Source: a virus
Direction: 5' to 3' (one strand)
Length of the DNA: 30,361 nt
IMG/VR virus record: IMGVR_UViG_3300032245_000776
Location: 1-30,361 of that record
Below are positions 1 through 30,361 of the stretch, one piece after another. The number at the start of each line of letters is the position of its first letter. The stretch's first letter is position 1. The translations under genes were made by a program, and so were the position numbers. Below the pieces are notes generated by a model. It was given only the letters and a program-made list of their open reading frames with translations, did not search any database and had not been told where the DNA came from.

Positions 1-178
1 AGGCTCGGCACACACTCACGGGATGGAGCAAAAAAGACCCGTTCGCTGTTCGCGAACTGCGGGCATCGCAATATCCTTGATTCGAGGTGCTATTGGCTAT
101 CTCCCCCGGTCGCGCCGTGGACTTCCCGCGCAGGTTTGTGTGTCCCGGTATCCTACAGATAGTAGGAGCAATAGACAA
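1..178. other. Leader upstream of the terminase genes, no gene recognised
   Basis: The frame of the small terminase stays open back to an ATG at 23, but those extra residues do not resemble the P27 family and a good ribosome site sits further down, so I treat this as leader. It holds a perfect 10-base palindrome GTTCGCGAAC at 48-57, which overlaps a small hairpin (GTTCGC 41-46 with GCGAAC 52-57). An AGGAG Shine-Dalgarno lies at 164-168. I see no convincing promoter and no gene on either strand. What precedes base 1 is unknown. Confidence 0.5.
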
Positions 179-667
179 ATGCGACCAGGACCGCCCCCAA
201 AGCCCAAGCATGTCCTCGCCTTGACAGGCTCATGGCGGGCTGACCACCGCGAGGAACTCGGCGAGTTCTACGACACGCTCCCGGAGCCGCCATCCTTCAT
301 GCGGGAGCGAGCGGCAGACTTCTTCAGGGAAGCCTGCGCCCAACTCGACGCGATGGGCGTCCTCGCCAAGACCGACAAGCATGCGGTCGTCCGGTACGCA
401 GCGACCCTCGACCGCTGGTATTCGGCCGAGGAGGAACTGGCCAAAAACGCGATCCATTTTCACAGCATGGTCGGACGCCAGGGCGAAGAAAAGGCGTCGA
501 AGCCGACGCCGTTCTTTGCGCAGTCTGCCGCATGCCATGAACAACTGCGGCAACTTGAGGCTGTCCTCGGGTTCACGCCCGCAGACAGGACTCGCCTGGG
601 CATGACCGTCATGGACAAGCAGGCCAAGTCGGCCGACCCCATGAAGGCGGTCCTCGCTGGTGGCTGA
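179..667 (+). CDS. Terminase small subunit, P27 family
   Basis: This is the DNA-recognition subunit of the packaging motor; it binds phage DNA and hands it to the large terminase. The 162-residue product opens with MRPGPPPKPKH, the basic proline-rich start typical of P27-family small terminases, followed by a helical body with the EPP and aromatic-rich segment common in the family. The start at 179 is chosen because AGGAG at 164-168 is 10 bases upstream and the family motif begins exactly there; an in-frame ATG at 23 would add 52 unrelated residues. The stop overlaps the GTG start of the large terminase by 8 bases, so the two are probably translated together. Family assignment is from sequence pattern and gene order. 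Confidence 0.85.
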   Translation: MRPGPPPKPKHVLALTGSWRADHREELGEFYDTLPEPPSFMRERAADFFREACAQLDAMGVLAKTDKHAVVRYAATLDRWYSAEEELAKNAIHFHSMVGRQGEEKASKPTPFFAQSAACHEQLRQLEAVLGFTPADRTRLGMTVMDKQAKSADPMKAVLAGG

Positions 668-2165
668 CGTTCGAGACTTCATATCCTGCCTCCGGCACTC
701 TCGCGGCGAGTTCGCCGGGAAACCGTTTGAGTTGTTCCCTTGGCAGGACGAGTACCTCGACAAACTCTTCAACACGAAGCGCCAAGACGGCACTCGTCAG
801 TACAGGCAGTCCCTTCTGGCCATCGGGCGCAAGAACGGGAAAACCCAGTTGTCGGCAGGCATCGGCCTGTTTGGGCTGGTAGCCGACGGAGAGCCGGGCG
901 CCGAGATCGTCTGCGTGGCCGGCGACCGGGAGCAGGCCACGATCTTGTTCGACGCCGCGAAGCAGATGGTCGAGGGGAACGAGACCCTTTCCTCGATCAT
1001 CAAGCCTTACCGCCGGTCGCTCGCTGTCCCCAGCACGAACAGCGTCCTGAAGGTGGTCTCCAGCGAGGCCGCGAGCAAGCACGGCTACGGCTGTTCGATG
1101 ATCTTGTTTGACGAGTTTCATGTCCAGAAAGACAGGGAACTTTACGATGTCCTGACCACAAGCACCGGCGCGCGGAGACAGCCGCTCACCATCCTGATTA
1201 CGACGGCCGGCTTCGACCGGCAGAGCATCTGCTACCAGATCTGGCAGTATGCCGAGAAGGTCCGGGACGGCCTGATCCAAGACCCGTCTTTCCTTCCATG
1301 CATCTACGCGGCACCGAACGATGCCGACCCGTTCGACGAGGCCAACTGGCGGCTTGCGAATCCGAACTTCGGCGTGACGGTCAAGGAAGAGTATTTCCGC
1401 GAGATCGCCGCCAGGGCCAGGAAGTCCACCAGCGACGAAATGACCTTTCGTCGCCTCCACTTGAACCAGTGGACGGCTTCCGAGGAGAAGTTCTTTCGCC
1501 ACGGCGTTTTTGAGGCTTGCGGAAGTCCGCTCAGGCCCACGGCCGGCCGCCCATGCTACTGCGGCCTTGACCTTGCCAGCACCTATGACACGACGGCCTT
1601 CGTGGCCATCTGGCCGGACGAAGACGGGACGTTCGACATGGAGGCGATGTACTGGATCCCAGGAGAGAACGCGCTAAAGCGCGAGCGCGCTGACAGAGTC
1701 CCGTATGGTCAATGGGCCAAGAGTGGTTTTGTTAGAATGACCGATGGTGACATCACCGATTACGACGAGATTCGCGACTACATACTCGATTTCTGCAACA
1801 GAAATTGGGTCAAAGGAGTGGCTATCGACCGCTGGAATGCGGTTCATTTGATGACCCAACTCTCTGCCGAGGGAGTGGTTGTTCACCCATTCGGGCAAGG
1901 ATATGGCGCGATGAACGCGCCGACCCGCCTCCTCGAAAACATCGTGACAACTGGCAGGCTCCGGCACGGCGGGAACCCGGTCTTGCAGTGGCAGGCGAGC
2001 AACGTCCAGGTGAAGACGAACGAAGATGGATTCATCAAACCTGTCAAAAAGTCTTCCCACGACATCGGCCGCATCGACGGCATCGTGGCCGCCTGCATGG
2101 CGCTCTCGCTTTCGAGCGGCGAGATTCACGGCCCCCAAGTAGAACCTGAAATCCTGGTGCTGTAG
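660..2165 (+). CDS. Terminase large subunit (ATPase-nuclease)
   Basis: This is the motor that pumps DNA into the prohead and cuts it. The 501-residue protein shows an N-terminal ATPase with Walker A GRKNGKT (residues 56-62) and Walker B MILFDE (147-152), including the catalytic acidic pair D151-E152. The C-terminal RNase H-like nuclease has CGLDLAS with D304, AIDRW with D390 and RIDGIVA with D473, the three metal-binding acidic positions expected. Length and motif order match HK97/P27-associated large terminases. It starts at a GTG at 660 that overlaps the small subunit, and ends sharing one base with the portal start (TAGTG). All key residues appear intact. Confidence 0.95.
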   Translation: MADVRDFISCLRHSRGEFAGKPFELFPWQDEYLDKLFNTKRQDGTRQYRQSLLAIGRKNGKTQLSAGIGLFGLVADGEPGAEIVCVAGDREQATILFDAAKQMVEGNETLSSIIKPYRRSLAVPSTNSVLKVVSSEAASKHGYGCSMILFDEFHVQKDRELYDVLTTSTGARRQPLTILITTAGFDRQSICYQIWQYAEKVRDGLIQDPSFLPCIYAAPNDADPFDEANWRLANPNFGVTVKEEYFREIAARARKSTSDEMTFRRLHLNQWTASEEKFFRHGVFEACGSPLRPTAGRPCYCGLDLASTYDTTAFVAIWPDEDGTFDMEAMYWIPGENALKRERADRVPYGQWAKSGFVRMTDGDITDYDEIRDYILDFCNRNWVKGVAIDRWNAVHLMTQLSAEGVVVHPFGQGYGAMNAPTRLLENIVTTGRLRHGGNPVLQWQASNVQVKTNEDGFIKPVKKSSHDIGRIDGIVAACMALSLSSGEIHGPQVEPEILVL

Positions 2166-3781
2166 TGGAGTCTCAGACTTCCGTCATCGAAGACATTCTT
2201 GAGATGCGCAGCGGCGTATCTCGCATCCTCGAAGAACTGATGGACAGGCGCGGCACCGTTTCTGGTGTCCAAGTGTCGCCTGAACTTGCCCTTCAGTGCA
2301 GCGCTGTTCTGGCCTGCGTCCGAGTGGTCTCCGAATCTGTGGCGTCCCTGCCATTCTCGCTCTACCGACGACTCGACATGGGCGGCAAGGAAGTGGCCGA
2401 TGGGATGCCGCTGCACAAGATCCTCTCAGAGACTCCGAACCCGTGGATGACGAGTTTTGAGTGGCGGGAACTGATGAACTCCTGGGCGATGCTCTGGGGT
2501 GCCGGCTACTCCGAGATCCGGCCGGGCCGATCAGGCTCCGTCACCGAACTCTGGCCGCTGCACCCGAGCCGCATGAAGCCAGAGCGGCTGAAGAACGGCA
2601 AGATTCAGTTCCTCTACAACGATCCGAACAAGCCCGGGGATCCAATCCCGTACCGGCAAGATCAGATCTTCCGGGTAACGTGGATGACGAAGGACGGGCT
2701 GAACTGCTACGTCCCCGTCAACATCTGCCGCGAGGCCATAGCGCTCGCCCAGGCTACCGAACTGCACTCTGGTGCGTTCTTCGGAAACGGCGCGAGGCCC
2801 GGCATCATCCTGGAGTCCGACCAGCCGCTCAAGCCAGAGACCGCCCAGCGTCTCAGGCAGACCTGGAACGACGCCCACGGCAGCGGCCCAGGCAACGCAT
2901 ACAAGACGGCCGTGCTGCCGTTTGGCATCAAGGCCAAGGAACTCTCCGGAACGAACGAGTCCAGCCAACTGATTGAGACCCGGCGCTACCAAGTCGAGGA
3001 CATCGCGAGGGGCTTCCGGGTGCCGGTCTACATGATCGGCGACCTGACAAAGAGTTCGTACTCATCGGTCGAGCAGCAAGGCTTGGACTTCGTGACGTTC
3101 ACGCTGGTGCCGTGGCTTCGACGCTGGGAAGGGGCTGTCAGGCGCGATCTTGTTGCAGACGATGACAACTACTTCGCCGAGTTCGACGTTCGCGGGCTTC
3201 TTCGCGGCGACAACGCCGGCCGGGCGCAGTATTACCGGGATCTCTGGTCGCTCGGCGTTCTTTCGATCAACGAGATTCGCGCCAGCGAAGGGATGAACCC
3301 CATTGACGGCGGCGACAAGCGGTTCGTCCAGGTCAACATGGCGCTGCTGGAGTCGTTCACGGTTCAGCCGGCGGAACCAGTTGCCGCCGATCCGGCGGCA
3401 ACGGATCCAGCGGCCGAAGCGGACCCTGCGGCGGCGCAGACCGACCCGGCGGCCACAGAACCGGCGGCAGACGCCGCCGCTGCACGCGCACTCTTCAAGC
3501 AGACGCTCCGGAAGTTGGCCGTCATCGAGGCCGATGGCATCAAGGAGCGCCGCAACAAGCCGGCCAAGTTGGCCGCGTGGCTCGAAGCCCACGAAAAGAG
3601 AATGCGGACAGAACTCTGCGACACAGCCAAGGCCACTGGGCTACAGATTGACGACTTCACTGCCCAGTGGATGAACGAAACACGCGAACTCCTGCTGTCG
3701 TGTCATCGCAGCGGAAAGCAGTACGAGGAGGTACTTGATACATGGACGGACAGAATCGAGAAGACATCGAGCGACGGCTGA
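2165..3781 (+). CDS. Portal protein, HK97 family
   Basis: The portal is the dodecameric ring at the head vertex through which DNA enters and leaves. Residues 1 to about 395 have the HK97-portal pattern: an SPELALQCSAVLACVRVVSES region near the start, TPNPWMTSFEWRE, and later RVPVYMIGDLTKSSYSSVEQQ followed by FTLVPWLRRWE, which is strongly diagnostic. After about residue 400 comes a low-complexity Ala/Pro/Asp linker with repeated DPAA units (nt about 3365-3490), then a charged helical domain to residue 538 that ordinary HK97 portals lack. The GTG start at 2165 is fused to the terminase stop. The gene runs 40 bases into the protease gene. Function is secure; the role of the C-terminal extension is unknown. 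Confidence 0.93.
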   Translation: MESQTSVIEDILEMRSGVSRILEELMDRRGTVSGVQVSPELALQCSAVLACVRVVSESVASLPFSLYRRLDMGGKEVADGMPLHKILSETPNPWMTSFEWRELMNSWAMLWGAGYSEIRPGRSGSVTELWPLHPSRMKPERLKNGKIQFLYNDPNKPGDPIPYRQDQIFRVTWMTKDGLNCYVPVNICREAIALAQATELHSGAFFGNGARPGIILESDQPLKPETAQRLRQTWNDAHGSGPGNAYKTAVLPFGIKAKELSGTNESSQLIETRRYQVEDIARGFRVPVYMIGDLTKSSYSSVEQQGLDFVTFTLVPWLRRWEGAVRRDLVADDDNYFAEFDVRGLLRGDNAGRAQYYRDLWSLGVLSINEIRASEGMNPIDGGDKRFVQVNMALLESFTVQPAEPVAADPAATDPAAEADPAAAQTDPAATEPAADAAAARALFKQTLRKLAVIEADGIKERRNKPAKLAAWLEAHEKRMRTELCDTAKATGLQIDDFTAQWMNETRELLLSCHRSGKQYEEVLDTWTDRIEKTSSDG

Positions 3782-5271
3782 TCGCCTGCGACACCGTCGT
3801 GGAGCGGTGCGCCTGCGACAAGACCGGCAAGAAGAAGGCCGTAATTCGCGGCTACGCGGCCTTGTTCAACTCCGACTCTCACGACCTGGGTGGGTTCGTG
3901 GAGCGGATTGCGCCAGGCGCCTTCGACGAGGTTATGAGGCGCGGCACCGACGTTGTTGGCCTTTACAACCACGAACAGATGTTCCTGCTTGGCCGCGAGT
4001 CTTCCGGGACGCTGCGGCTGTCTGTGGATGAGCGCGGCCTGCGGTACGAAATCGACGCCCCTGAAAGCCGCGCCGATGTCGTCGAGTCCATCGAAAGAGG
4101 CGATGTCCGCGGAAGTTCGTTCGCATTTCGCGTGAAGGGTGCCGGAGAGAAGTGGTCGCGCATGCAGGACGGCCGACAACTGCGTGAGATCACCTCGTTT
4201 GACGGCCTGTTCGACGTTGGGCCTGTGACGCGGCCGGCCTACCCGGCCACCGAGACGTTCGTGAGTCGCCGTGCGCTTGAGATGGCCAGCCGGTCGATGT
4301 ATTCAGCAGGCGACTTTGTCGCTTGGGATGGCGGCGTCGGCCGGATCGAGTACGTCATGTCGGAGGGATCCATCGGAGACTACTCCGAGTCGCCCATTGA
4401 GGCCACTCCGGACGACCCAGCCGCGCTTGTCCGGAAGTTCGACTTCGAGGACGGCACCTGGGAGGAGTCCGACTACTTCGTGGCCAAGAAGATGAGCGAA
4501 CTTGTCTCGGCCAGCAACATCATGGGCGAAGCCCCAGCGTTCATCGACCAGCGGGCCGCAAGCCTGAAGCCCACGGCCGGCATGGCCGCCGCCGCCAAGC
4601 GTGGCCTGCGTCTGCACGAAGAAGGCAAGTCTGGTGACGGCCTGAAGCCAGAGACCGTGGCCAGGGCAAACAAACTCGCCCGCCGCGAAGAGATGAACGA
4701 AGATTGGGTCGTTGAGATGAACGCTTGGTTTGCCCGACACGCTTCCGACAAAAAGGATGGCTGGGACAAGGCTGGCGAGGAAACGCCGGGCTTCGTCGCG
4801 CACTTGCTCTGGGGCGGCACACCGGCGAAGAACTGGGCCGCCCGCAAGGTGAAGGAACTTGAGGGACGCGCGATGGAGGATCCGGGCGGTGAGTCCCTCT
4901 CTCCGGCCAACTTCGCGCTCTACGAAGCAATCGAGCAGATCGTCGTCGATAACGGCAAGTGGCCGCAGGGCGGGCCAGACGGGGCGCACTACATGACCGA
5001 GAACCCGTTCGCCGAGCAAGGCATGCGGTGCGAGAACTGCGTGTTCTTCGAGAACGGCGCTTGCGAAGTCGTGGACGGTGAGATCGACCCGAACGCCGTC
5101 TGCAAACTGTGGGTCATCCCGGAGGAGAGGATCCAGGAGCCGGCTTCGCCGGCTCCTGACGCCGACCCTGCTGCGAAGAAGCCCGCAGAGCGATCCATCA
5201 ACCCGGCGTCGGAGGCGGCGAGGCTCCGAGCGAAGGCGTTGGAGGCCATCTCCAGTGGATCCTCTCGATAG
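3742..5271 (+). CDS. Prohead protease (U35/HK97-like) with three-part C-terminal extension
   Basis: Residues 1-180 match the HK97 prohead protease fold, which cleaves capsid and scaffold during head maturation: AVIRGYAALFN, the F-x-E-R-I-A-PGAF segment, a probable catalytic His in LYNHE (H77), Ser in GSSFAF (S125/S126), and DVGPVTRPAYPAT. The usual family length is near 200 residues, but this product has 509. Residues about 188-255 form a small Tudor/SH3-like module (GDFVAWDGGVGRIEYV, then DDPAALVRKF). Residues 275-375 resemble a phage module with NxxFARH and LLWGG motifs. Residues 429-460 hold C430-x2-C433-x7-C441-x12-C454, resembling a HiPIP-like or zinc-binding motif. The start has GAGGAGG at 3725-3731. 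The protease call is firm; the extension may act as a scaffold or be packaged. Confidence 0.88.
   Translation: MDGQNREDIERRLIACDTVVERCACDKTGKKKAVIRGYAALFNSDSHDLGGFVERIAPGAFDEVMRRGTDVVGLYNHEQMFLLGRESSGTLRLSVDERGLRYEIDAPESRADVVESIERGDVRGSSFAFRVKGAGEKWSRMQDGRQLREITSFDGLFDVGPVTRPAYPATETFVSRRALEMASRSMYSAGDFVAWDGGVGRIEYVMSEGSIGDYSESPIEATPDDPAALVRKFDFEDGTWEESDYFVAKKMSELVSASNIMGEAPAFIDQRAASLKPTAGMAAAAKRGLRLHEEGKSGDGLKPETVARANKLARREEMNEDWVVEMNAWFARHASDKKDGWDKAGEETPGFVAHLLWGGTPAKNWAARKVKELEGRAMEDPGGESLSPANFALYEAIEQIVVDNGKWPQGGPDGAHYMTENPFAEQGMRCENCVFFENGACEVVDGEIDPNAVCKLWVIPEERIQEPASPAPDADPAAKKPAERSINPASEAARLRAKALEAISSGSSR
5134..5158. repeat. Perfect 25-base stem-loop inside the protease gene
   Basis: Arms CAGGAGCCGGC (5134-5144) and GCCGGCTCCTG (5148-5158) pair perfectly over 11 bp around a TTC loop. 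It lies in frame in the protease tail and encodes roughly residues 465-472, in a disordered EPASPAP stretch. It has the same 11-3-11 geometry as the palindrome at 27442-27466. Confidence 0.75.
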
Positions 5272-6904
5272 CCTGCGCGAAGCCGTGCTGCGAGTTGCCG
5301 CCGCGCTCCGTCGTGGCGGCCGCGGCATGAAGAGTCCGCAGAAGCAGAAGAAGGTAAAACTCTCCGGTCGCAGGCCGGCGAAGGCGGGGCCGTCTGCCGG
5401 CTGCGGTACTGGTTCTGGTGGCTTCAAAGCCGGCAACAACTGCGCCAAGGAAGACGGCATTCCGCGGAAGCCTCTGTCTCAAGGCGGCGCGCTGAAGCAG
5501 CCGAGCGCAAAGCAGGACTTCGCCGCCGCAAAAGCCATGAAGGCGAAGGCCGCCGCCAAGAAGGCGGCCAAGGAGGCCGCGGCGAAGGCAAAGTCGGCTG
5601 TCGAGAAGCCGAAGCGAGAGAAGCAGAAGAAGATCGACAAACTCAAGAAGGCCGCCGCCGACCGCAAGGCACAAAAAGACGCCAAGTCGGCCGCCGAAAC
5701 CAAGGCCGCCCAAGAGGCAGTCGCCAAGAAGAAAGCGGCCATGCTCCAAAAGATCCGCGTCAAGAGCGCGAATCAGAAGATCGCAGTCGTCGGGACGCCC
5801 AAGAGCATCAAGCAGGAACTTCAGGAACTCAAGTTGAAGAAGGCGAGCGAGAAACTCGCCGTCTCATCTACGCCCAAGAGCATCAAGGACGAACTTGATG
5901 AACTCAAGGCGTCGATGCAGAACCTCAAGAAGATCGCAGCGCCGACGCCCAAGCCCGCCCCTGCGCCGCCGCCGCCAACCGTCAAGCCGTCAAATCCGCC
6001 TGCGTCCAGCAAGGTCGGCGAACTCCAGCACAAGAAGAAAAACCAACTCACGCCCGGCGACCAAGACCAGTTGAACATTGACCGGGAGCGGGTGTTCGGC
6101 AAAGACTCTACCGACGGCTGGAAGTACGGTGCGGCATATCAAGACTCCCTGAAGGTTAGGATTACTACGAAGATCAAGACATCGTTCGATGCCGCAAAGC
6201 GGCTCGAAAAGATGGGCATCAAGGAGTCTGATGTCACCGACGAGATGCTCAACACGTTCGACACCAGCGGGAAGTATTACGGCAGCAGTGCCGCAGCCGA
6301 CAAACTCATCCTGGATGGCGTCCCGGCGCAGTATCACAGACGATACGCGCTGTCGGCCGGAATGGTTGACAGTTGGGCCAACACCTCCGGCGACTCGTCC
6401 GCGAAGGCTATCGGAATCCAGTATGCGATTCGCGAAGAATTCAACGTGAAGGGCGCGTACACGCGGCACCTTACTCCGAAGACAACCTACGGCACCGTGG
6501 CCAAAGCCGAGTTCAAGGCGCTGGCAAACAAGGTCGGAAACGACAAAGCCGTGCGGGCGGTAGTCAGGGCGCACTACGAAAACACGCAGGCACGGCTGAA
6601 AGCCGAAGGTATCTCCGAGATCACTCTCGTTCGCGGGTACAGCAGTTCCGCCAAAATCAACGTGAGCGGCGATCAAGTTGTATCGCTCCAGCCGGCGTCT
6701 AGTTTCTCGATGGACAAGAGCATCGCGGCCGGTTTCTCAAACAATGGCGGGGCAAGCAAGGCGCGGCACCTAGTCCTAAGAGTCCCAGCAAATAGGGTTC
6801 TTTCAACGTCTGTTTCTGGCTTCGGGTGCCTCGGCGAGCAGGAGATCGTAGTATTGGGCGGCAAGGTAACTGGCCGGGTTCATAAAAGCGCCTGGAGTTG
6901 GTGA
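5255..6904 (+). CDS. Head-associated ADP-ribosyltransferase fusion protein (R-S-E type)
   Basis: The predicted 549-residue protein probably transfers ADP-ribose from NAD to a target protein. The C-terminal domain carries the arginine-specific ADP-ribosyltransferase triad in order: Arg in TLVRGYSS (R460), the STS-like strand SSFSMD (S483-x-S485), and the ExE motif LGEQEIVV (E528-x-E530). The first half is a very basic Lys/Ala helical region (about residues 90-230) with a CGTGSGGFKAGN motif near residue 50, a doubled TPKSIKxELxEL unit and a Pro-rich linker (about 230-250). I chose the GTG at 5255: GGAG at 5241-5244 precedes it, and the frame upstream overlaps the protease gene and is Arg-rich shadow. 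It sits where MuF minor head proteins usually lie, between protease and capsid, suggesting the enzyme is packaged and injected. I do not see a clear MuF domain. Target unknown. Confidence 0.75.
   Translation: MDPLDSLREAVLRVAAALRRGGRGMKSPQKQKKVKLSGRRPAKAGPSAGCGTGSGGFKAGNNCAKEDGIPRKPLSQGGALKQPSAKQDFAAAKAMKAKAAAKKAAKEAAAKAKSAVEKPKREKQKKIDKLKKAAADRKAQKDAKSAAETKAAQEAVAKKKAAMLQKIRVKSANQKIAVVGTPKSIKQELQELKLKKASEKLAVSSTPKSIKDELDELKASMQNLKKIAAPTPKPAPAPPPPTVKPSNPPASSKVGELQHKKKNQLTPGDQDQLNIDRERVFGKDSTDGWKYGAAYQDSLKVRITTKIKTSFDAAKRLEKMGIKESDVTDEMLNTFDTSGKYYGSSAAADKLILDGVPAQYHRRYALSAGMVDSWANTSGDSSAKAIGIQYAIREEFNVKGAYTRHLTPKTTYGTVAKAEFKALANKVGNDKAVRAVVRAHYENTQARLKAEGISEITLVRGYSSSAKINVSGDQVVSLQPASSFSMDKSIAAGFSNNGGASKARHLVLRVPANRVLSTSVSGFGCLGEQEIVVLGGKVTGRVHKSAWSW
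5795..5887 (+). repeat. Doubled 75-base unit within the ADP-ribosyltransferase gene
   Basis: The 18-base string acgcccaagagcatcaag occurs at 5795-5812 and again at 5870-5887, exactly 75 bases (25 codons) apart. The translated units read TPKSIKQELQELK and TPKSIKDELDELK with similar flanks, so this is an in-frame duplication in the helical linker. Confidence 0.8.
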
Positions 6905-7275
6905 TGCTCAAAGACTTCTTCGCAGACGACGATTCGCCCGACGAGAACGACGCCGACCCCATCGACGCCGAACTGTCGAACGCCGATTGGCCCAAGCGGA
7001 CCAAAGACACCCAGGCCGACATCGAGGAAGCCCTTGCCTCCGCGCCGCCATCGACCCCGTTCATCCACGGCCGCAACTGGTTCGCGTGGTTCGACTACGA
7101 AACGATGGATTGGGACGGAGACAGCGAGGACGCCCCGGTGGGCATGCTCCGCGAAGAGTTCAACGAATCTCGCATCACCGAGTACGTCGATGCCGAGAAG
7201 ACGCGCCGTGAACTCTACGAAGACGCCGTCATCTTTTTGGCCATCTGGGGCGTGAAGGCCGAAGTGGTTTCCTGA
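6904..7275 (+). CDS. Small very acidic protein coupled to the ADP-ribosyltransferase
   Basis: This 123-residue protein is not recognised. It is strongly acidic, with a D/E-dense N-terminus (FFADDDSPDENDADPID) and aromatic clusters such as RNWFAWFDYETMDWDGD, and has no membrane segment. The ATG at 6904 shares its first base with the toxin-like gene's stop (TGATG), and GGAG at 6894-6897 is well spaced, so the two are made together. An acidic protein placed directly after an ADP-ribosyltransferase could be its immunity partner or chaperone; that is inference from position and charge only. It could equally be a head protein or scaffold. A TTG two codons earlier (6898) is a less likely start. Confidence 0.7.
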   Translation: MLKDFFADDDSPDENDADPIDAELSNADWPKRTKDTQADIEEALASAPPSTPFIHGRNWFAWFDYETMDWDGDSEDAPVGMLREEFNESRITEYVDAEKTRRELYEDAVIFLAIWGVKAEVVS

Positions 7276-7337
7276 CCACCCGCCGACTGACTTGCACGGC
7301 GCGCCATGCAGCGCGTAGGCTACAGGTAGACATATTG

Positions 7338-7359
7338 CTCCGCGATGGAAGTCGCGGAG
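7338..7359 (+). promoter_or_regulatory. Hairpin in the major capsid leader
   Basis: CTCCGCGA (7338-7345) pairs perfectly with TCGCGGAG (7352-7359) around a 6-base loop. A second weaker stem, GCGGG/CCCGC, lies at 7401-7415. Both are in the 189-base gap 7276-7464, the largest in the window, ahead of what is normally the most expressed phage gene. There is no T-tract, so it does not look like an intrinsic terminator; an mRNA processing or stability role is possible. The rest of the gap shows only a weak TTGCAC/TAGGCT promoter-like pair. Confidence 0.45.
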
Positions 7360-7464
7360 TGCAGTGCGAGCGACTTGAGGATTCATTTCGCGGCGCGCTT
7401 GCGGGAACCACCCGCCAGCCGCCGCTTTTGCGTTTGGCTGGCTCAGACAAGGAGCAACAGCCAG

Positions 7465-8805
7465 ATGAAGAACCTCAAGCGACTTCAGGATCGTGCCGCG
7501 GCCATCGCCGCTCGCCTCAACGAACTTGCCGACATCGACGAGCGCTCGGAAGAGCAGACCGTCGAACTTCGTCGGCTCACCGAGGAGGCCGACACGGTCA
7601 AGACCGACCTTGAGTTCGAGCAGCGCCTTGCGGCCAAGTCGGCCGAACTCCAGACCATGATCGAGCCGGCCGCCCCCGCTCCCGCCAAGGGCAGCGAAGA
7701 AGGTGCGAAGCAGAAGAAGACCGAGGTTCGGGCGATTCTGCCCCATCACAGCACCCTGAAGGCGTTCAACGACGGTCCCGAGGCCGTCGAGTCGGCCTAC
7801 CGCTCGGGCCGCTGGCTCGGCGCGACGGTGTTCCGCCGGGAGGAAGACCTCCGGTGGTGCAAGGACAACGGCGTGGACACCCGCGCACTCGGCGAGAACT
7901 CGAACGCCCTCGGCGGCGCTCTGGTTCCCGAAGAGTTCGCCAACCGGGTGATCCGGCTCGTCGAGACCTATGGCACGTTCACCTCGGCCGCCGAGAACGT
8001 GTCGATGAGCCGCGACACCCTCATCATCCCGAAGCGGGTTTCTGGCACCACGGCGTACTTCGTTGGCGAAGGCTCCGGCGTGACCGAGAGCGACCCGACC
8101 TACACGAACGTCAGCCTGACGGCGAAGAAGTTGGCCGTGGCCTGCCGTATGTCGAGCGAGGTGGTGGACGACGCTTTTGTGAGCCTCGCTGACAGCGTGG
8201 CTCAGGAGTTCTCGACTTCGCTGGCATTCCGAATCGACACTTGCGGCTGGATCGGCGACGGCTCGGCCCAGTTTGGCGGCATCAACGGCATCGTCAACAA
8301 GATCAACGACGGCACTCGCACTGCGTCGGTGGTCACGGCCCTCGCCGGAAACACGGCGTTCGAGACCCTCGACATCGAGGACTTCCTCGCGGTCGTCGGC
8401 CGGATTCCTCTCTACGCCCGCCAGGGCGCTGCGTGGTACATCTCGCCGGCCGGGTATGCGGCGAGCATTGCTCGCCTGAAGTACGCAGCCGGCGGCAACA
8501 CCGTGGACAACATGGGCCGAGACGCCGGAGAGTCCTTCCTGGGCTACCCAGTGAAGACGATCCACGTTCTCAACAGCACCCTCGGGGCCGACGCCAACAA
8601 GGTGAAGGTTCTGTTCGGGAACATGGGCCTATCGAGCATCTACGCTCGCCGGCGTGACTTCTCGGTGCGGCTGTACGATCAGGTCTACGCCACGACCGAC
8701 CAGTTGCTCCTCCAAGGCACGATGCGGTTTGACATCAACCACCACTCCCTCGGATCTACGACAGAGAGCGGCCCCGTGGTCGCCCTCCGTACTCCGAACT
8801 CTTGA
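7465..8805 (+). CDS. Major capsid protein, HK97 fold
   Basis: This is the main shell subunit of the head. The 446-residue product has an N-terminal charged coiled coil (about residues 3-70, LNELADIDERSEEQT region) followed by an Ala/Pro linker, the layout of the HK97 delta/scaffold domain removed by the prohead protease. Then comes a mature HK97-like core with GGALVPEEFANRVIRLVE, TAYFVGEGSGVTESDP and the YISPAGYAASIARLK region, ending with DQVYATTDQLLLQGTMRFD. The ATG at 7465 is preceded by AAGGAG (7449-7454), a strong ribosome site; the frame is open 40 codons further upstream but lacks a comparable site. Gene order after portal and protease supports the call. Confidence 0.93.
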   Translation: MKNLKRLQDRAAAIAARLNELADIDERSEEQTVELRRLTEEADTVKTDLEFEQRLAAKSAELQTMIEPAAPAPAKGSEEGAKQKKTEVRAILPHHSTLKAFNDGPEAVESAYRSGRWLGATVFRREEDLRWCKDNGVDTRALGENSNALGGALVPEEFANRVIRLVETYGTFTSAAENVSMSRDTLIIPKRVSGTTAYFVGEGSGVTESDPTYTNVSLTAKKLAVACRMSSEVVDDAFVSLADSVAQEFSTSLAFRIDTCGWIGDGSAQFGGINGIVNKINDGTRTASVVTALAGNTAFETLDIEDFLAVVGRIPLYARQGAAWYISPAGYAASIARLKYAAGGNTVDNMGRDAGESFLGYPVKTIHVLNSTLGADANKVKVLFGNMGLSSIYARRRDFSVRLYDQVYATTDQLLLQGTMRFDINHHSLGSTTESGPVVALRTPNS

Positions 8806-10265: not shown

Positions 10266-10894
10266 CCTACTACTTCATCGAGCCGGGGCTTCCTGCGAGC
10301 GGTGTCACTCCGTACCGCAGCCTGATCCGGGTCACGCCGCCAGCCGTCGAGCCTGTGACAATGGCCGAAGCCAAGGCGCACTGCCGCGTCGATACGGCCG
10401 ACGACGACACCTACATCTCGACGCTGATTACCACCGCGCGGTCCTACGTCGAGGACATGCTCGACATCTCCCTCATCACGACCGTCTGGGAGGCCCGGTA
10501 TGACTGCTTCCCGCTGTGGGAGATCACACTGCCGCGCCCGCCCATGCAGGCCGGCGGAGTCGTCGTCACCTACCGGGATGAGGGCGGAACTACCAGGACT
10601 CTCGCCGGCACCGAGTACCAGATCGACAACTTCACCACGCCCGGCCGGATCTACCCGAAGTACGCCGGCAACTGGCCGGCTGTTCGCGGCGACGAGAACA
10701 GCGTCGTGGTCCGGTTCTCCTCGGGCTACGGCGCCACGGCCGCCAGCGTCCCGAACATTATCGAACACGCCATCTTGCTCCTAGTCGCTCACTGGTACGA
10801 AACCCGCCAGCCGGTAGCGCAGGGCATGCAGATGCCGATCCCAGGCACCTTCAACACGTTGCTCGCCGCGGCGGGGTGGGGCGGATACCGGTGA
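10262..10894 (+). CDS. Head-tail connector, HK97 gp6-like
   Basis: This protein probably forms the adaptor ring beneath the portal. The 210-residue sequence has the gp6-like helical start EPVTMAEAKAHCRVDTADDDTYISTLITTARSYVEDMLD, the common head-tail connector signature, followed by a beta-rich insertion (VTYRDEGGTT, YQIDNF) and a C-terminal helix (IEHAILLLVAHWYETRQPV). It is longer than the usual 100-residue gp6 because of that beta-rich middle, which is typical of the longer phiE125 gp8-type members. GTG start at 10262 overlaps the previous stop by 4 bases. Confidence 0.85.
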   Translation: MTYYFIEPGLPASGVTPYRSLIRVTPPAVEPVTMAEAKAHCRVDTADDDTYISTLITTARSYVEDMLDISLITTVWEARYDCFPLWEITLPRPPMQAGGVVVTYRDEGGTTRTLAGTEYQIDNFTTPGRIYPKYAGNWPAVRGDENSVVVRFSSGYGATAASVPNIIEHAILLLVAHWYETRQPVAQGMQMPIPGTFNTLLAAAGWGGYR

Positions 10895-11373
10895 CTCTCA
10901 CTGCAACCGTTGGGCTGACCATCGAATCGAACGACTACGGCGGCAGTGGCCTTTCGTCGTCGGTGCTGTCGCGCTCGCTTTCGTCGTTCGTTGGCGTCAA
11001 CGACTGCACGATGGTGCGCCGAGAGGAGCGCACCATCGGATCGTCTGGCGCCGACGACATCAGCCTGTCGGCGTTTTCCGCCGTCAAGGTTCTTTGCGTC
11101 AGGAACCTGTCAAGTGCGGCCGTCATTGGCATGACGGGCGGCTGGAACGGAACCGAGTTCAGGAACTTCCTGCCGGATGCAGTCCAGTGGAACTTCGCGC
11201 CCGTCATCAACCTGGGAAGCCTGACGATTCGTGGCTACCCAATCCGGCCGATGGGAGTGTTCCTGGTCTCCTGCCCGAACTCGGCCGGACTCCTGTCCAC
11301 AATCGGCGGTAGCACTCTCCGGATTGGCGGCCCAAGCGGCACGAAGTACGAACTCTATGTCATGGGGACTTGA
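10891..11373 (+). CDS. Beta-rich virion protein, paralogue A
   Basis: A 160-residue protein without recognised family. The GTG at 10891 overlaps the connector stop (GTGA). The core AVKVLCVRNLSSAAVIGM followed by a GVFLVSCPN strand and a terminal KYELYVMGT resembles the next gene (ASVKAIYVRNKSATSVLSV, AMLVTNPG, NYDLVLIGEG) and, more distantly, the gene at 18839. The pattern suggests a beta-sandwich virion protein. Its position between connector and head-tail joining genes is unusual because those two are normally adjacent. Decoration or tail-side spike roles are both possible; I cannot choose. Confidence 0.7.
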   Translation: MTLTATVGLTIESNDYGGSGLSSSVLSRSLSSFVGVNDCTMVRREERTIGSSGADDISLSAFSAVKVLCVRNLSSAAVIGMTGGWNGTEFRNFLPDAVQWNFAPVINLGSLTIRGYPIRPMGVFLVSCPNSAGLLSTIGGSTLRIGGPSGTKYELYVMGT

Positions 11374-11376
11374 CGA

Positions 11377-25349: not shown

Positions 25350-25574
25350 ATGTTGGTGGCCAGAACTGGCCGCGAGCGCGAGAACTGGACGATGCGGCTC
25401 CCGGCCGCAGTCCTGAAAGAACTGATCGAGGTCCGGGAGAAGTTTCTCAGCGGCGAGACCGGGTTCTCTGCCCGCTCGCTCGCCTGGGCTGTCGTGGACG
25501 ACTTGGCAACAACTCATGGTCTCACAAACGTGTGTAGCCGGGAGACCATGCGGATATGGCTGTCAAAGAAATGA
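25350..25574 (+). CDS. Small basic helical protein, possible DNA-binding
   Basis: A 74-residue protein, all-helical in pattern, with a basic start (VARTGRERENWTMRLP) and a C-terminal segment (SARSLAWAVVDDLATTHGLTNVCSRETMRIWL) that could form a helix-turn-helix, with the SRETMRIWL helix as recognition helix. No family is recognised and the DNA-binding idea is weak. The ATG at 25350 is 7 bases after the previous stop; the gene overlaps the phosphoesterase gene by 19 bases. Confidence 0.6.
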   Translation: MLVARTGRERENWTMRLPAAVLKELIEVREKFLSGETGFSARSLAWAVVDDLATTHGLTNVCSRETMRIWLSKK

Positions 25575-26578
25575 CCGACCGCGTTATAGCAGTCGCGGCC
25601 GACGCCGAGGCGGCGCGGCTTCGCGGAGAGATCACTGACCTTCGCAGGAAGTACAACGCCGCGCTGGCTCAGATCGAGCGCGAAAAAGAGGCCCGCGAGA
25701 GCATCACGGCGCTGGCAGGCGTGAAGTCCAGGAAGATCACCAGGGCGAGAAAAAGCGGAAAGCGGCCAGACGCCACCGCAATCCTGGTTTGTTCAGATTG
25801 GCACGTTGAGGAGTACGTTGACCCTGCCACGAACGTGCCTGGGAACGAGTACACCCTTGAGATCGCTGATCGCAGAATCAAGCAACTGGTTCAGCGGGCC
25901 GGAATGCTCATCGAGCATGAGAAGTCCCTGACGAACATCAGGCGCGTCGTCGTGGCGGCCCTTGGCGACTTCGTGACGGGCCATATTCACGATGACCTCG
26001 TCGAGACCACACAACTTGCGCCGCTGGCAGCGATTCGCTGGGCCGGCGAGAGGCTTGGCGGCGTGATCGACGCCATGTCGGAGATAGCCCCCGTCCTGGT
26101 CGTGACGGCCAGCGGGAACCACGGCAGGACTACCCACAAGCCCCGCATTGCTACAGAGAACGAGCATTCGTTCGAGCAGCACTTGTATCTGACGATGGCC
26201 GCGCAGGAGAAGCGCAAGCACGTTTCGTGGCAAGTCGGCGCGGGCTATCTCAACATCGCAGACCTGGACGGGTTCCCTGTCAGGTTCCATCATGGTCACG
26301 CCATCCGGTTCGGTGGTGGCGTGGGCGGCCTGACGATCCCGGCAAACAAGGCCATAAGCAACTGGAACATTTCCAGGCGCGTCCAACTGGACGTATTCGG
26401 TCACTGGCACACGTTTTCGTGGCTTCCGTACAGGTTCGTGGCAAACGGTAGTTTGATCGGCCACAACGCTTTCGCGGATAGAATCAAGGCCGAGTTCCAG
26501 CCCCCGAGCCAGAGTCTCGTCGTCGTGGATCACAGCCACAGCCGCGTCACCAAAGTCCTCCCGGTGTTTGTTGCATGA
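25556..26578 (+). CDS. Calcineurin-like metallophosphoesterase
   Basis: A 340-residue protein with the complete metallophosphoesterase motif set: D81-x-H83 (CSDWH), G137-D138 (ALGDF), G187-N188-H189 (SGNHG), H246-G-H248 (FHHGHAI) and G282-H283-x-H285 (FGHWHTF). These residues bind two metal ions and hydrolyse phosphate esters or nucleic acid. An N-terminal coiled coil (about residues 15-50) precedes it. Many phages carry such proteins, related to SbcD-like nucleases, and they may act in DNA processing or nucleotide turnover; the true substrate is not evident. GGGAG at 25540-25544 supports the ATG at 25556; an ATG at 25571 (ATGA overlap) is an alternative. Confidence 0.87.
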   Translation: MAVKEMTDRVIAVAADAEAARLRGEITDLRRKYNAALAQIEREKEARESITALAGVKSRKITRARKSGKRPDATAILVCSDWHVEEYVDPATNVPGNEYTLEIADRRIKQLVQRAGMLIEHEKSLTNIRRVVVAALGDFVTGHIHDDLVETTQLAPLAAIRWAGERLGGVIDAMSEIAPVLVVTASGNHGRTTHKPRIATENEHSFEQHLYLTMAAQEKRKHVSWQVGAGYLNIADLDGFPVRFHHGHAIRFGGGVGGLTIPANKAISNWNISRRVQLDVFGHWHTFSWLPYRFVANGSLIGHNAFADRIKAEFQPPSQSLVVVDHSHSRVTKVLPVFVA

Positions 26579-27048
26579 GCGAAATCGAACTCCTTCGCAT
26601 CGCAGCCCACGCCGCCAGCACCCGCTCAGGAGACCCAAGAACACAAAACGGGGCCGTTTTGTCTCGGCCGGACAACTTCATTGTGTCGGCGGCAAACTCG
26701 TTCCCGGCAGGCGTCAGGCCAAGGGCGGAACCGCCGGAGAAGTACACCTACATCGAACACGCCGAGCGAAACGTCATCTACAAGGCGGCCTCGATGGGCT
26801 GGCCGACGGGCGGCGCGACCATGTACTGCCTATGGTTCGCCTGCGCAGAGTGCGCGAGGGCCATTGTCCAGGCGGGGATCTACGAAGTAGTCGGACTCGC
26901 GAAGACCAGGAACGCAACGCCCGACAGATGGCTGGATGCCGTCCAGGATGGCGAGGACATCTTGCGTGAGGCTGGAGTTGGAATGCGGTGGCTCGGCGAA
27001 CGAATCGGGGCCACGATCATGTTCGACGGCAAGGAGATGCACCTGTGA
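26575..27048 (+). CDS. Deoxycytidylate (dCMP) deaminase
   Basis: A 157-residue zinc-dependent deaminase converting dCMP to dUMP, feeding dTMP synthesis. It shows the zinc site H62-A-E64 (EHAERN) and C90-x-x-C93 (FACAECARAI), with E64 the proton shuttle, and the DPRTQNGAV segment near the start typical of dCMP and related cytidine deaminases. The usual PCxxC has Ala instead of Pro before the first Cys, a mild variation. ATG at 26575 overlaps the phosphoesterase stop (ATGA), and the stop overlaps the kinase GTG, linking both nucleotide enzymes in one unit. A different deaminase substrate is possible. Confidence 0.87.
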   Translation: MSEIELLRIAAHAASTRSGDPRTQNGAVLSRPDNFIVSAANSFPAGVRPRAEPPEKYTYIEHAERNVIYKAASMGWPTGGATMYCLWFACAECARAIVQAGIYEVVGLAKTRNATPDRWLDAVQDGEDILREAGVGMRWLGERIGATIMFDGKEMHL

Positions 27049-27605
27049 TTCTTGTTGGCATCCACGGCGCAGCCGGGGCTGGGAAAAACTCGTTTGCAGA
27101 AGCCCTGATTCAAGGGACTCACTGGGAAGACAGGGCGTTCGCCGGCCCGCTCTATGAGGCCGTCTCGGTCATCACCAGGATGCCCGTGCCGTGGCTCAAG
27201 GACCGCAAGAACAAGGAGACCGTCATCCCGTGGGTCGGAAAGTCCCCGAGGGAACTCCTTCAACTCCTGGGGACTGACTTCGGCCGGAACATGGTCCGGG
27301 ACGACTTCTGGATCCAACTCGCCATGCAGCCGCCGACGAACCCGGAGTCCACCGGAATCGTCTACACCGACGTTCGGTTCGACAACGAGGCAGAGGCCAT
27401 CATCTCTCGCGGGGGCGTGGTCATAGAAGTCGTGAGGCCGGGTGTCTCCTGCCTCGCAGGAGACACGCAGACACACCCCAGCGAGAAGCCCCTCTCGCGC
27501 CACCTGATCTTTGAGACCATCCAGAACGACGGCACCATGGATGACCTCCGCGTGGCCGCGGAATCAGCCCGCGTGAGGCTACTGGCCAATATAATGAGTG
27601 TGTGA
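27045..27605 (+). CDS. Deoxynucleoside monophosphate kinase (T4 gp1-like)
   Basis: A 186-residue P-loop kinase predicted to phosphorylate dNMPs to dNDPs with ATP. Walker A is GAAGAGKNS (residues 8-16) right at the N-terminus. Family features follow: a LLQLLGTDFGR motif, DDFWI and DVRFDNEAEAI near the middle, VVIEVVRPG and a later HPSE segment. The GTG at 27045 overlaps the deaminase stop (GTGA) and places the P-loop at the usual distance from the start; an upstream ATG at 26988 would add residues from inside the deaminase gene. Between RPG and HPSE lies a short stretch encoded by a perfect 25-base palindrome (27442-27466), perhaps an insertion. Confidence 0.88.
   Translation: MILVGIHGAAGAGKNSFAEALIQGTHWEDRAFAGPLYEAVSVITRMPVPWLKDRKNKETVIPWVGKSPRELLQLLGTDFGRNMVRDDFWIQLAMQPPTNPESTGIVYTDVRFDNEAEAIISRGGVVIEVVRPGVSCLAGDTQTHPSEKPLSRHLIFETIQNDGTMDDLRVAAESARVRLLANIMSV
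27442..27466. repeat. Perfect 25-base stem-loop inside the kinase gene
   Basis: GTGTCTCCTGC (27442-27452) pairs perfectly with GCAGGAGACAC (27456-27466) around a CTC loop. It encodes residues about 133-141, between the conserved RPG and HPSE of the kinase. The 11-3-11 geometry and the CTCCTG/CAGGAG elements are shared with the stem-loop at 5134-5158. Confidence 0.78.
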
Positions 27606-27654: not shown

Positions 27655-28008
27655 ATGGAACCGAAGATTCGGCGAAAGTTCAAGGCGGTCGGCGTAACGA
27701 TCTCCACCGCCACTGCATCTTCAACGACCCTCAGATGGGACGACGTTGCTGGCGGCACCCTTGAAATGGGGACCGTCTCGACCAGCGCTACCTCCATCCA
27801 GTTGTGGGCGTCCGACGCCATGACGGGGGCATTCGGCCGCCTTTACAACGCCGACGGCTCCGCGGCCGACATCACGCTTGCCCCGTCTGCCTCCGAGTCA
27901 CGGGTCTACTCGCTTCCTGACGCCTGCTACGGCGCCGGAGCGATCAAGTTGGTGGCTGCGAACGCAGCCGGAACCGGGGCGGTCTGTATCGTCACCATGA
28001 AGACCTGA
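27655..28008 (+). CDS. Small beta-rich protein with very strong ribosome site
   Basis: A 117-residue protein preceded by AAGGAGGTG (27642-27650), the best Shine-Dalgarno in the window, implying high expression. It is basic at the N-terminus (MEPKIRRKFKAVGV) and then Ser/Thr/Ala/Gly-rich and beta-prone (TLEMGTVSTSATSIQLWASDAMTG, DITLAPSASESRVYSLPD), with no membrane segment. Such proteins are often virion decoration subunits, which would fit the expression level, but it lies among metabolic genes and I recognise no family. Leader 27606-27654 has no other evident signal. Confidence 0.7.
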   Translation: MEPKIRRKFKAVGVTISTATASSTTLRWDDVAGGTLEMGTVSTSATSIQLWASDAMTGAFGRLYNADGSAADITLAPSASESRVYSLPDACYGAGAIKLVAANAAGTGAVCIVTMKT

Positions 28009-28010
28009 CC

Positions 28011-28538
28011 GTGACTGACGCCCTGTGGGTTCTGTCGGCGTGGTTGATGGCAGACTTCATGTCCGGGGTCTTCCACTGGTGGGAGGACCGCTATGGCGTT
28101 GAGGATTGGCCCGTCATCGGGCCGCTGATCGTGTCCCCGAACATCATGCACCACACCCAGCCGCGGGCGTTCCTGGAGGGCAGCATCCTCCAGCGGAACT
28201 GGACTACCGTCGTGCCGGCCGCCCTGTTCGCCGCCGGCTGTGTCTGGGCCGGCTGGAACTGGCTGGCGCTGGCCTGTGCGTTCACCGGGGTGGCCAACGA
28301 AGTCCACGCCTGGGCGCACCAGAAGTGCTGCCGGCAGATCCGTGGGCTTCAGATGCTCGGAATCCTGCAAAGCCAGGAGCAGCACTCGCAGCATCACACG
28401 CAGCCTTTCAGCGAGAACTACTGCGTGATGACTGACCTTGTGAACCCGGTGCTTGAGCGGGCCGGTTTCTGGCGCGGAGCGGAGTGGGTCATCAAGCAGT
28501 GCGGGGTAGAACCGAGCCTGGAAAGGGAACTGGCGTGA
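28011..28538 (+). CDS. Kua/CarF/TMEM189-type lipid desaturase (auxiliary metabolic gene)
   Basis: The 175-residue membrane protein has the signature of the Kua/TMEM189 lipid desaturase family, which includes CarF and human PEDS1 (plasmanylethanolamine desaturase, making the vinyl-ether bond of plasmalogens) and plant FAD4. Visible: D15-x3-G19-x2-H22-W-x2-D26 (DFMSGVFHWWED), H47-H48 (MHHTQP), N96-x2-H99-x3-H103 (NEVHAWAHQ), and H125-x2-H128-H129-x2-P-x4-Y-C (HSQHHTQPFSENYC), the eight-histidine di-iron pattern. Hydrophobic spans lie at about 3-20 and 66-92. It is shorter than CarF (about 280 residues), lacking N-terminal membrane helices, but all histidine boxes are present. GTG start at 28011. 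Whether it makes plasmalogens or another desaturated lipid is not decided by sequence. Confidence 0.88.
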   Translation: MTDALWVLSAWLMADFMSGVFHWWEDRYGVEDWPVIGPLIVSPNIMHHTQPRAFLEGSILQRNWTTVVPAALFAAGCVWAGWNWLALACAFTGVANEVHAWAHQKCCRQIRGLQMLGILQSQEQHSQHHTQPFSENYCVMTDLVNPVLERAGFWRGAEWVIKQCGVEPSLERELA

Positions 28539-28765
28539 ACAAGGAAACCCTGTTCAGCATCATCGAGAAGTACGGGTTTCCGGTCTTCGTGGCTTCGGCT
28601 CTCGGAATCTCGCTCCGAGAGGACGTAGTCAAGCCGCTTGTCGCCGAACACACTCAGTTCGTCAAGAGCGTGATAGAGACCCAGAAAGAGATTGCCAAAA
28701 CGGTCAGCGAACAAACAAAACTCCTGTACGCGCTCCAGCCGAGAGCGACTGAAAGCGCCGAGTAA
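28535..28765 (+). CDS. Small membrane protein, holin-like candidate
   Basis: A 76-residue protein with one probable membrane segment near the N-terminus (YGFPVFVASALGISL, about residues 13-27) followed by a charged amphipathic helix (VVKPLVAEHTQFVKSVIETQ). This layout resembles small one-helix phage proteins of the BhlA/UviB type often proposed as holins. No endolysin is visible next to it, which weakens that call. The GTG at 28535 overlaps the desaturase stop (GTGA), so it could instead be a membrane partner of the desaturase. Confidence 0.6.
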   Translation: MNKETLFSIIEKYGFPVFVASALGISLREDVVKPLVAEHTQFVKSVIETQKEIAKTVSEQTKLLYALQPRATESAE

Positions 28766-28768
28766 AAA

Positions 28769-30361
28769 ATGCCTCTCTCGCCTCGCACCTTTCGCCCGGC
28801 GTCCACCGGCTTCACCCCCCGCTCCATCAGCGGCCTCGCCCTCTGGCTTGACGCTGCGGACAGCAGCACCACCTACACCACCGACGCCGGGCCGGTGACG
28901 GCGGTGACGGCGCCGACGGACATTGCGGGGTGCGCGCTGTGGTTGGACGGTGCAGACTCGTCGGCGTCCAGCATGGCGCTGAACGGCTCGCTTGTCGAAA
29001 CGTGGAAGGACAAGACCAGCAACGGCAGAGACTTCACGGCAACCAGCACTGCAAGGCCAACGCTCACAGGCTCCGCGATCAACGCTCGCAGCGTCGTCAC
29101 GTTCAACGGTTCGTCCAATACGATGACCGGCAACGCGGCAGCGCAGGACGTTATCCGCAACCTCGCGGGTTATACCGTGTTCACGGTGCTGCGGACGACG
29201 ACGGTCGCAGCGGGCGAGCGACTCGCATTCGGCGTTGGCGCGACAGTGCTGTTTCGCGCAGGTCAGACCGACAGTCGTTCGTTCATCGGAGGCCGTCGCG
29301 TTGGAGGCGACACTCTGGAAAGCGTTACCGGAACAGCGGGAGAACTGACGGCCAACGCCGCCTTCATTCAGTCGGCCGTCGTCAATCACACGGCGCAGTC
29401 GCTGACCGGCCTTCGCAACGGTACGGCATACGGAACTGACACAACCTACATGGCGGCTGGCGTCAGCGAGAACGTGGCGTCGTCGGTGTCGGTCGGGACG
29501 CAGGCCGGTGGCACATACGGCTTCTGGAACGGAGACATAGCCGAAGTAGTCGTCTACAACACTGCCATCTCCACCGCCGACCGCGCCCGCGTCGAAGCCT
29601 ACCTCGCAACCAAGTGGGGCATCAGCGGCGTCCACGCTCCCGCCACCGCGACGAGCGATCCGGTGGGGTACTGGGCCGACAAGAGCGGCAACGCGAGGCA
29701 CGCTACGCAGGCGACGGGGGCGAGCCGCCTGACTGTCAGCGGTACGGCCTTGAACAACCGGAAGCAACTCGGCCTTGCGTCGCAGCATCTTCGCGGGCCG
29801 TCGCTCTCATGGAACGGATCAGTCACGGCTTACTGGGTAGGCCGAACGGGTCAGGCTTCCAGCGGGGCGGTGGTGTTCCATGATGGATCAGTTGCCGACC
29901 AGACCGACGCCTTCCACTGTGGATGGCTCAACGCGCAGGGCGTCGGCGCATACGGAAACGGCTGGGGCAGCGGCAACGCGCCAAGGGCGGAGTCGCCTTC
30001 TGCTTGGCGGTCTGCGGACATTGTCGCTGGCGTCACACTGTCTGGCACAGAATCGCTCGCTCGCGTCAACGGCGCGACAGTCAACACGGTGGCAGGACTA
30101 ACAGGCACCCTGTCACAGTCAACGCCGGGATCGTTCTACATTGGCCGAGAGGCTTCTGGAACGTGGACGAACCTCAACGGCACGCTGGCCGAACTGCTCA
30201 TCTACCAACCGGCCCTCAGTGCGTCACAGAGGCAGCGAGTCGAACGCTACCTCGCCGCCAAGTGGGGCATCACGCTGGCCCCGCAGGTCAGCAACGCCGA
30301 CGCGCAGGATTGGATCAACCGCGTCTACGCGAACGGCGGCACGGTGTCGTCCAGCACGGCG
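28769..30361 (+). CDS. LamG-like repeat tail fibre protein, partial (cut by window end)
   Basis: An open frame of 531 codons runs from ATG 28769 to the window edge with no stop. It contains LamG/concanavalin-like domains. The opening motif ALWLDxADSS occurs twice (about residues 24-32 and 56-64), and the domain-ending motif GDIAEVVVYN...VEAYLATKWGI (255-287) recurs as GTLAELLIYQ...VERYLAAKWGI (471-501), 216 residues apart. A further YWADKSGNARHATQATG starts the second full domain. These folds bind sugars or proteins, and here probably the host surface. The end (SNADAQDWINRVYANGG) begins a segment often seen in phage fibres. No clear ribosome site precedes the ATG. Confidence 0.83.
   Translation, partial: MPLSPRTFRPASTGFTPRSISGLALWLDAADSSTTYTTDAGPVTAVTAPTDIAGCALWLDGADSSASSMALNGSLVETWKDKTSNGRDFTATSTARPTLTGSAINARSVVTFNGSSNTMTGNAAAQDVIRNLAGYTVFTVLRTTTVAAGERLAFGVGATVLFRAGQTDSRSFIGGRRVGGDTLESVTGTAGELTANAAFIQSAVVNHTAQSLTGLRNGTAYGTDTTYMAAGVSENVASSVSVGTQAGGTYGFWNGDIAEVVVYNTAISTADRARVEAYLATKWGISGVHAPATATSDPVGYWADKSGNARHATQATGASRLTVSGTALNNRKQLGLASQHLRGPSLSWNGSVTAYWVGRTGQASSGAVVFHDGSVADQTDAFHCGWLNAQGVGAYGNGWGSGNAPRAESPSAWRSADIVAGVTLSGTESLARVNGATVNTVAGLTGTLSQSTPGSFYIGREASGTWTNLNGTLAELLIYQPALSASQRQRVERYLAAKWGITLAPQVSNADAQDWINRVYANGGTVSSSTA
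28894..28911 (+). repeat. 9-base tandem repeat in the fibre gene
   Basis: GGTGACGGC occurs twice in tandem (28894-28902 and 28903-28911), encoding a VTAVTA linker between the truncated first LamG start and the second. Confidence 0.7.

Follow-up and report, generated by a model that had tools for sequence, protein, structure and literature searches.

What would a tailed phage do with a lipid desaturase? This question is raised by the ORF at positions 28011-28538 (+ strand) of the window, by which we mean the whole 30,361-base IMG/VR record. Its terminase, portal, protease and capsid genes identify it as part of the genome of a tailed phage, and this genome is incomplete since the last ORF runs past the end of the record. 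Specifically, a packaging and head module coding for TerS, TerL, portal, prohead protease and major capsid proteins spans positions 2-8805 (+ strand) as judged by Pfam and PHROG matches, and these genes, together with that of a head-tail connector, are located upstream of the desaturase on the same strand. There are no tRNA genes in the window, no near-identical phage was found in the reference phage collection, and neither DNA nor terminase similarity was informative as to the host.

The genes that immediately surround the desaturase are all transcribed from the + strand. Upstream there is a metallophosphoesterase/exonuclease-like protein (25556-26578; phrog_284, 3.1e-37), a dCMP deaminase (26575-27048; PF00383, 3.3e-14 and phrog_174, 4.1e-24), a deoxynucleoside monophosphate kinase (27045-27605; PF21448, 2.7e-12 and phrog_139, 5.9e-46) and a 117-aa ORF of unassigned function (27655-28008) that has no Pfam or PHROG match and that has a relative in contig L079, located there downstream of the desaturase. 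Two bases separate the stop of this 117-aa ORF from the desaturase start, and the start codon of the next ORF shares bases with the stop codon of the desaturase (GTGA, 28535-28538). That ORF (28535-28765) codes for a 76-aa protein with a hydrophobic start and a charged tail that is holin-like in appearance and is also without a Pfam or PHROG match. It is followed by a virion structural protein (28769-30361; phrog_10356, E 6.8e-40) that is cut by the record end. Such tight packing and overlaps are as expected for a co-expressed operon, and the gene layout places the desaturase in a late operon with predicted late expression. The desaturase ORF initiates with a GTG codon, which is consistent with the start positions of its relatives in an alignment of 18 viral homologues; a simple codon-based caller favors an alternative internal start that would yield a protein of 163 aa. 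The preliminary description of this locus as coding for a compact 175-residue protein located among phage late genes was exact in regards to coordinates, strand and length, and the gene order bears out the late location.

The assignment to a desaturase family is unambiguous at the level of the Pfam profile. The 175-aa protein matches PF10520 (Lipid_desat) with an E value of 6.8e-38 and a score of 130.9 bits relative to a curated cut-off of 26.4, with residues 11-168 covering profile positions 1-172 of 175; this E value excludes chance. No PHROG family covers the protein. The ligand set comprises eight His and one Asp arranged as H22-x3-D26, H47-H48, H99-x3-H103 and H125-x2-H128-H129, all of which are invariant in the 18 viral homologues as well as in 46 of 46 viral plus genomic homologues, confirming that every histidine box of the family is present as had been proposed. 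Mutagenesis of PEDS1 has identified eight essential His, one essential Asp and a nearly essential Phe (mouse F118) (PMC8960569), and all nine of the essential positions are kept in each of the 46 rows. For comparison, mean column identity is 56% in the viral set and 39% in the wider set. Finally, dN/dS values of 0.07-0.30 for all viral pairs with unsaturated dS indicate that there is selection for function.

AlphaFold2 with the 46-row alignment as input returned a confident helical model (mean pLDDT 94.6, pTM 0.89). The best fold neighbors of this model among viral proteins are an unnamed viral protein and Harvfovirus A0A3G5A308 (TM 0.75 and 0.66, respectively). Viral PF10520 proteins are already present in databases, the Harvfovirus example being named 'Lipid desaturase domain-containing protein'; it has the same predicted fold (Foldseek E 1.2e-4) but is from a giant virus of eukaryotes, is only 23% identical to the window protein and is uncharacterized. 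A PDB sequence search with the protein and its profile returned nothing meaningful, and the closest PDB fold obtained with Foldseek is the fatty-acid hydroxylase Scs7p, a weak match with an E value of 1.0. There is also a sub-threshold match to PF04116 FA_hydroxylase (24 bits versus a cut-off of 31). These weak similarities would be in line with a lipid hydroxylase or another O2-dependent lipid oxidase, and membrane di-iron enzymes with such a ligand set can undertake hydroxylation as well as desaturation, two chemistries that use one common type of active site. However, the PF10520 score is far higher than that of PF04116, and the two PF10520 activities characterized in the papers cited here are both desaturations. 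A hydroxylase in place of a desaturase is thus a rather unlikely identity for this protein.

Two additional sites separate the characterized branches of the PF10520 family. One is the F118 site described above, and the other is mouse H131, a PEDS1-specific histidine whose change to Ala retains ~7% activity (PMC8960569). The presence of this histidine, which is H113 in CarF, distinguishes plasmalogen desaturases from FAD4 and from alphaproteobacterial homologues (PMC9131029, PMC8960569). In the window protein the F118-equivalent residue is Asn44, as 45 of the 46 rows have Asn at this site and only L146 has Thr, and the H131-equivalent residue is Gly57, with His present at this site in none of the 46 rows. 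These sites were located with what we take to be the human PEDS1 sequence, on which all published PEDS1 site numbers landed on the correct residues, and with a sequence presumed to be Arabidopsis FAD4 that served as a residue ruler. The eight His and the D100 equivalent are shared with the plasmanylethanolamine desaturases PEDS1/TMEM189 and CarF, but the window protein scores only 62.7 bits with the CarF equivalog NF045946 (NCBIfam) that has a cut-off of 500, and thus misses it. FAD4, the plastid PG delta-3-trans desaturase, also has the eight His and Asp and, like the window protein, does not contain the PEDS1 histidine; however, its residues at the two diagnostic sites are Phe and Arg, as opposed to Asn and Gly in the window protein. 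The window protein also has no N-terminal extension, being 175 aa in length versus 270-323 aa for PEDS1 and FAD4. The protein therefore shares a full-length profile match and the complete ligand set with the PF10520 family, while forming part of a distinct subclass in which Asn occupies the F118 site.

A tree of 76 rows, for which the collection of bacterial sequences started from motifs that are conserved among the phage proteins and in which long branches are present, places the window protein as sister to L002 and L003 (99/97). The clade that contains it has 28 viral rows along with 2 rows from Pirellula MAGs (96/87), and this one branch holds nearly all of the sequenced phage copies in a larger 58-row clade (97/91) within which it is nested, and from which the PEDS1-like and FAD4-like sequences are excluded. 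Members of the 58-row clade have Asn at the F118 site wherever tabulated, other than L146 (Thr) and L197 (Ile). Signature residues and support values thus speak strongly for a third PF10520 class that is distinct from both PEDS1/CarF and FAD4, although the AU test does not back it, as moving human PEDS1 into the 58-row clade is not rejected (p 0.133). Candidacy as a FAD4 orthologue fails on the diagnostic residues and on the location outside of the FAD4-like rows, and candidacy as a CarF/PEDS1 orthologue fails on the Gly and Asn residues, the equivalog score and the separate clade. The Kua/CarF/TMEM189-type label that was initially given to this protein therefore stands in regards to PF10520 membership and ligand set, but its grouping with CarF and TMEM189 does not.

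These same data bear on whether the protein could be a plasmalogen (vinyl-ether) desaturase that, like CarF and PEDS1, acts on host alkyl-ether phospholipids. Membership in the same Pfam family, the intact set of eight His and Asp, the AU result and the residual activity of mouse H131A are all compatible with such an activity, and Planctomycetes genomes carry PEDS1-like genes, hence ether lipids may occur in possible hosts. Against it are the absence of both H131 and F118 equivalents from the window protein and from all 46 rows, the low CarF equivalog score and the separate clade. Furthermore, a tested alphaproteobacterial homologue, from the group without the PEDS1 histidine, failed to replace CarF (PMC9131029). 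The lack of both PEDS1-diagnostic residues, together with this failed replacement, makes an ether-lipid substrate less likely, and a plasmalogen function consequently appears unlikely.

We consider it reasonably probable that the window instead codes for a compact membrane di-iron PF10520 desaturase of the third, phage-rich class that is made late and that acts on an acyl chain of host phospholipid. An acyl substrate is favored over an ether substrate by the missing PEDS1 histidine taken together with the inability of the alphaproteobacterial homologue to replace CarF. The enzyme class is read from the sequence, whereas iron binding, catalysis, topology, the acyl substrate and the effect on the host are inferred. 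In the proposed sequence of events, the desaturase would be produced late in infection alongside the structural proteins and would enter the inner membrane of the host, its histidines on the cytoplasmic side. There, with O2 and with electrons that a donor of the host supplies, it would create a double bond in a host phospholipid acyl chain. The resulting change in membrane packing or oxidation state would then precede assembly and lysis. Placement in late or morphogenesis modules is observed for the window, for Erythrobacter phage L02 and for Mu-like prophages. Also in favor of this reading are the well-supported phage clade (96/87) and the phospholipase gene that adjoins the desaturase in the phage relative L009. 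Evidence that counts against an acyl-lipid desaturase includes the replacement by Asn of a Phe that is nearly essential in PEDS1, the lack of an identified electron-donor gene within the window, the weakness of the Scs7p similarity and the lack of a conserved lipid operon around the bacterial homologues, which are accompanied by scattered oxidoreductases only.

Little is known of lipid-modifying enzymes from tailed phages. In the present case an intact lipid-desaturase active site is found repeatedly across phages, with purifying selection and a phage-dominated clade. If the enzyme is active, then late infection would rewrite host membrane lipids by an O2-dependent step, and these phages probably do alter host membrane lipids late in infection. 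A broader proposal, which is possible but rather doubtful, is that the third PF10520 functional class is largely phage-borne and makes an unsaturated lipid with a bond position that is new relative to PEDS1 and FAD4, with many aquatic phages remodeling the host inner membrane late. In the literature we found no paper on phage PF10520, Kua or plasmalogen desaturase genes and no experiments on any member of the phage-rich class, in agreement with the preliminary description that knew of no characterized phage enzyme of this family.

Relatives of the desaturase are widespread in viral sequences. A single-sequence scan of viral contigs recovered 22 loci, and a profile scan recovered at least 138 confirmed IMG/VR stretches, 80 of which were kept, with some overlap between the two scans; the contigs that carry relatives range from 4 to 390 kb. 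Carriers include siphophages, a CbK-like phage, contigs of up to 390 kb and Mu-like prophages, with the gene usually located among late genes, and a more distant relative is present among annotated phages in a 595-kb uncultured phage. The isolated Erythrobacter phage vB_EliS-L02 also has a relative, the hypothetical protein UIS25202.1 (PMC9127768), which is 38% identical over 92% of the length and whose gene adjoins the portal and phoH genes. This protein has no desaturase annotation, a desaturase is not mentioned in the paper on this phage (PMC9127768), and it clusters with sphingomonad prophage copies apart from the clade of the window protein. The tree thus suggests that phage L02 may have acquired its desaturase separately, with the reservation that joining L02 to the main viral clade is not rejected by the AU test (p 0.12).

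A scan of the genome collection confirmed 96 loci, and the plasmid collection gave no match. Among the confirmed loci are desaturase genes within the morphogenesis modules of Mu-like prophages (L155:5941-6462, L114 and L143, all Sphingomonadales), specifically in the cultured strain Novosphingobium naphthalenivorans NBRC 102051, in Erythrobacteraceae and in another member of the Sphingomonadales, located beside portal, terminase, sheath and tail genes. As both isolated phage vB_EliS-L02 and the cultured Novosphingobium prophage carry relatives, lipidomics could address function directly. Some Pirellula MAG contigs have sequence and layout in common with viral contigs, and other copies, from Verrucomicrobiota, Bacteroidota and Planctomycetota, look chromosomal.

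Several types of genes recur as neighbors of the desaturase in related phages. These include HNH endonucleases, terminase small subunit, small membrane ORFs comparable to that of the window (3' of the desaturase in L003, L006 and L062), dNMP kinase (close to the desaturase in L005, L006, L042, L043, L064 and L067) and metallophosphoesterase (upstream in L030, L032 and L082). In L076 and L091-L093 the desaturase is located a few genes ahead of TerS, TerL and portal, an arrangement that the window would share provided that its genome is circularly permuted. A patatin-like phospholipase (10513-11376; PF01734, 8.4e-7) is encoded immediately 3' of the phage desaturase in L009. In the Pirellula-like group a secreted trypsin-like protease in which the motif CPRCEWPS is conserved is encoded immediately 5' of the desaturase (L092:4580-5944 with equivalents in L091, L094, L099 and L106); this CxxC-bearing protein was considered as a thioredoxin and rejected as it is a Trypsin_2 protein.

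Membrane-anchored thioredoxin-fold proteins are encoded beside phage desaturases in two lineages (L003:8926-9849, L015:1967-2461, L090:5488-5973 and L096:3041-3541). Three of these neighbors that were tested have no Pfam match, and the fold is visible in the L090 model for which thioredoxins make up nearly all of the best fold matches. Such a protein could be a redox partner of the desaturase, comparable to the enhancement of FAD4 by peroxiredoxin Q as cited in PMC12456178 (Horn 2020), and no more than 1.1 kb separates a thioredoxin-fold gene from the desaturase in L003, L006, L015, L090, L095 and L096. However, no such gene is present in the window, its occurrence is restricted to these two lineages, and the signal/anchor layout suggests a periplasmic thioredoxin domain while the CarF histidines are cytoplasmic. 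As this topology argues against a partnership, we regard it as only a weak rival and as improbable. Least probable of all is a membrane protein that is catalytically idle and retained for a different function, for instance in lysis timing or superinfection exclusion, as deeply diverged phages have all of the metal ligands in common while other positions vary freely, even though small membrane ORFs adjoin the desaturase in several phages and no redox partner was found.

Two additional groups of PF10520 proteins were observed in bacterial genomes. According to published surveys, CarF homologues are almost entirely confined to myxobacteria, Leptospira and a few Alphaproteobacteria. We observed PF10520 proteins with both of the PEDS1-diagnostic residues (Phe and His) in 17 Planctomycetota genomes (L199, L202-L205, L207-L214 and L216-L219), with up to 50.6% identity to the sequence that we take to be human PEDS1. 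Given these planctomycete proteins, aerobic plasmalogen synthesis may be wider than surveyed. Finally, of 299 genomes from the Novosphingobium family, 15 code for a divergent FAD4-like class (L228-L242), and the eleven members that could be aligned have Phe and Arg as their diagnostic residues.
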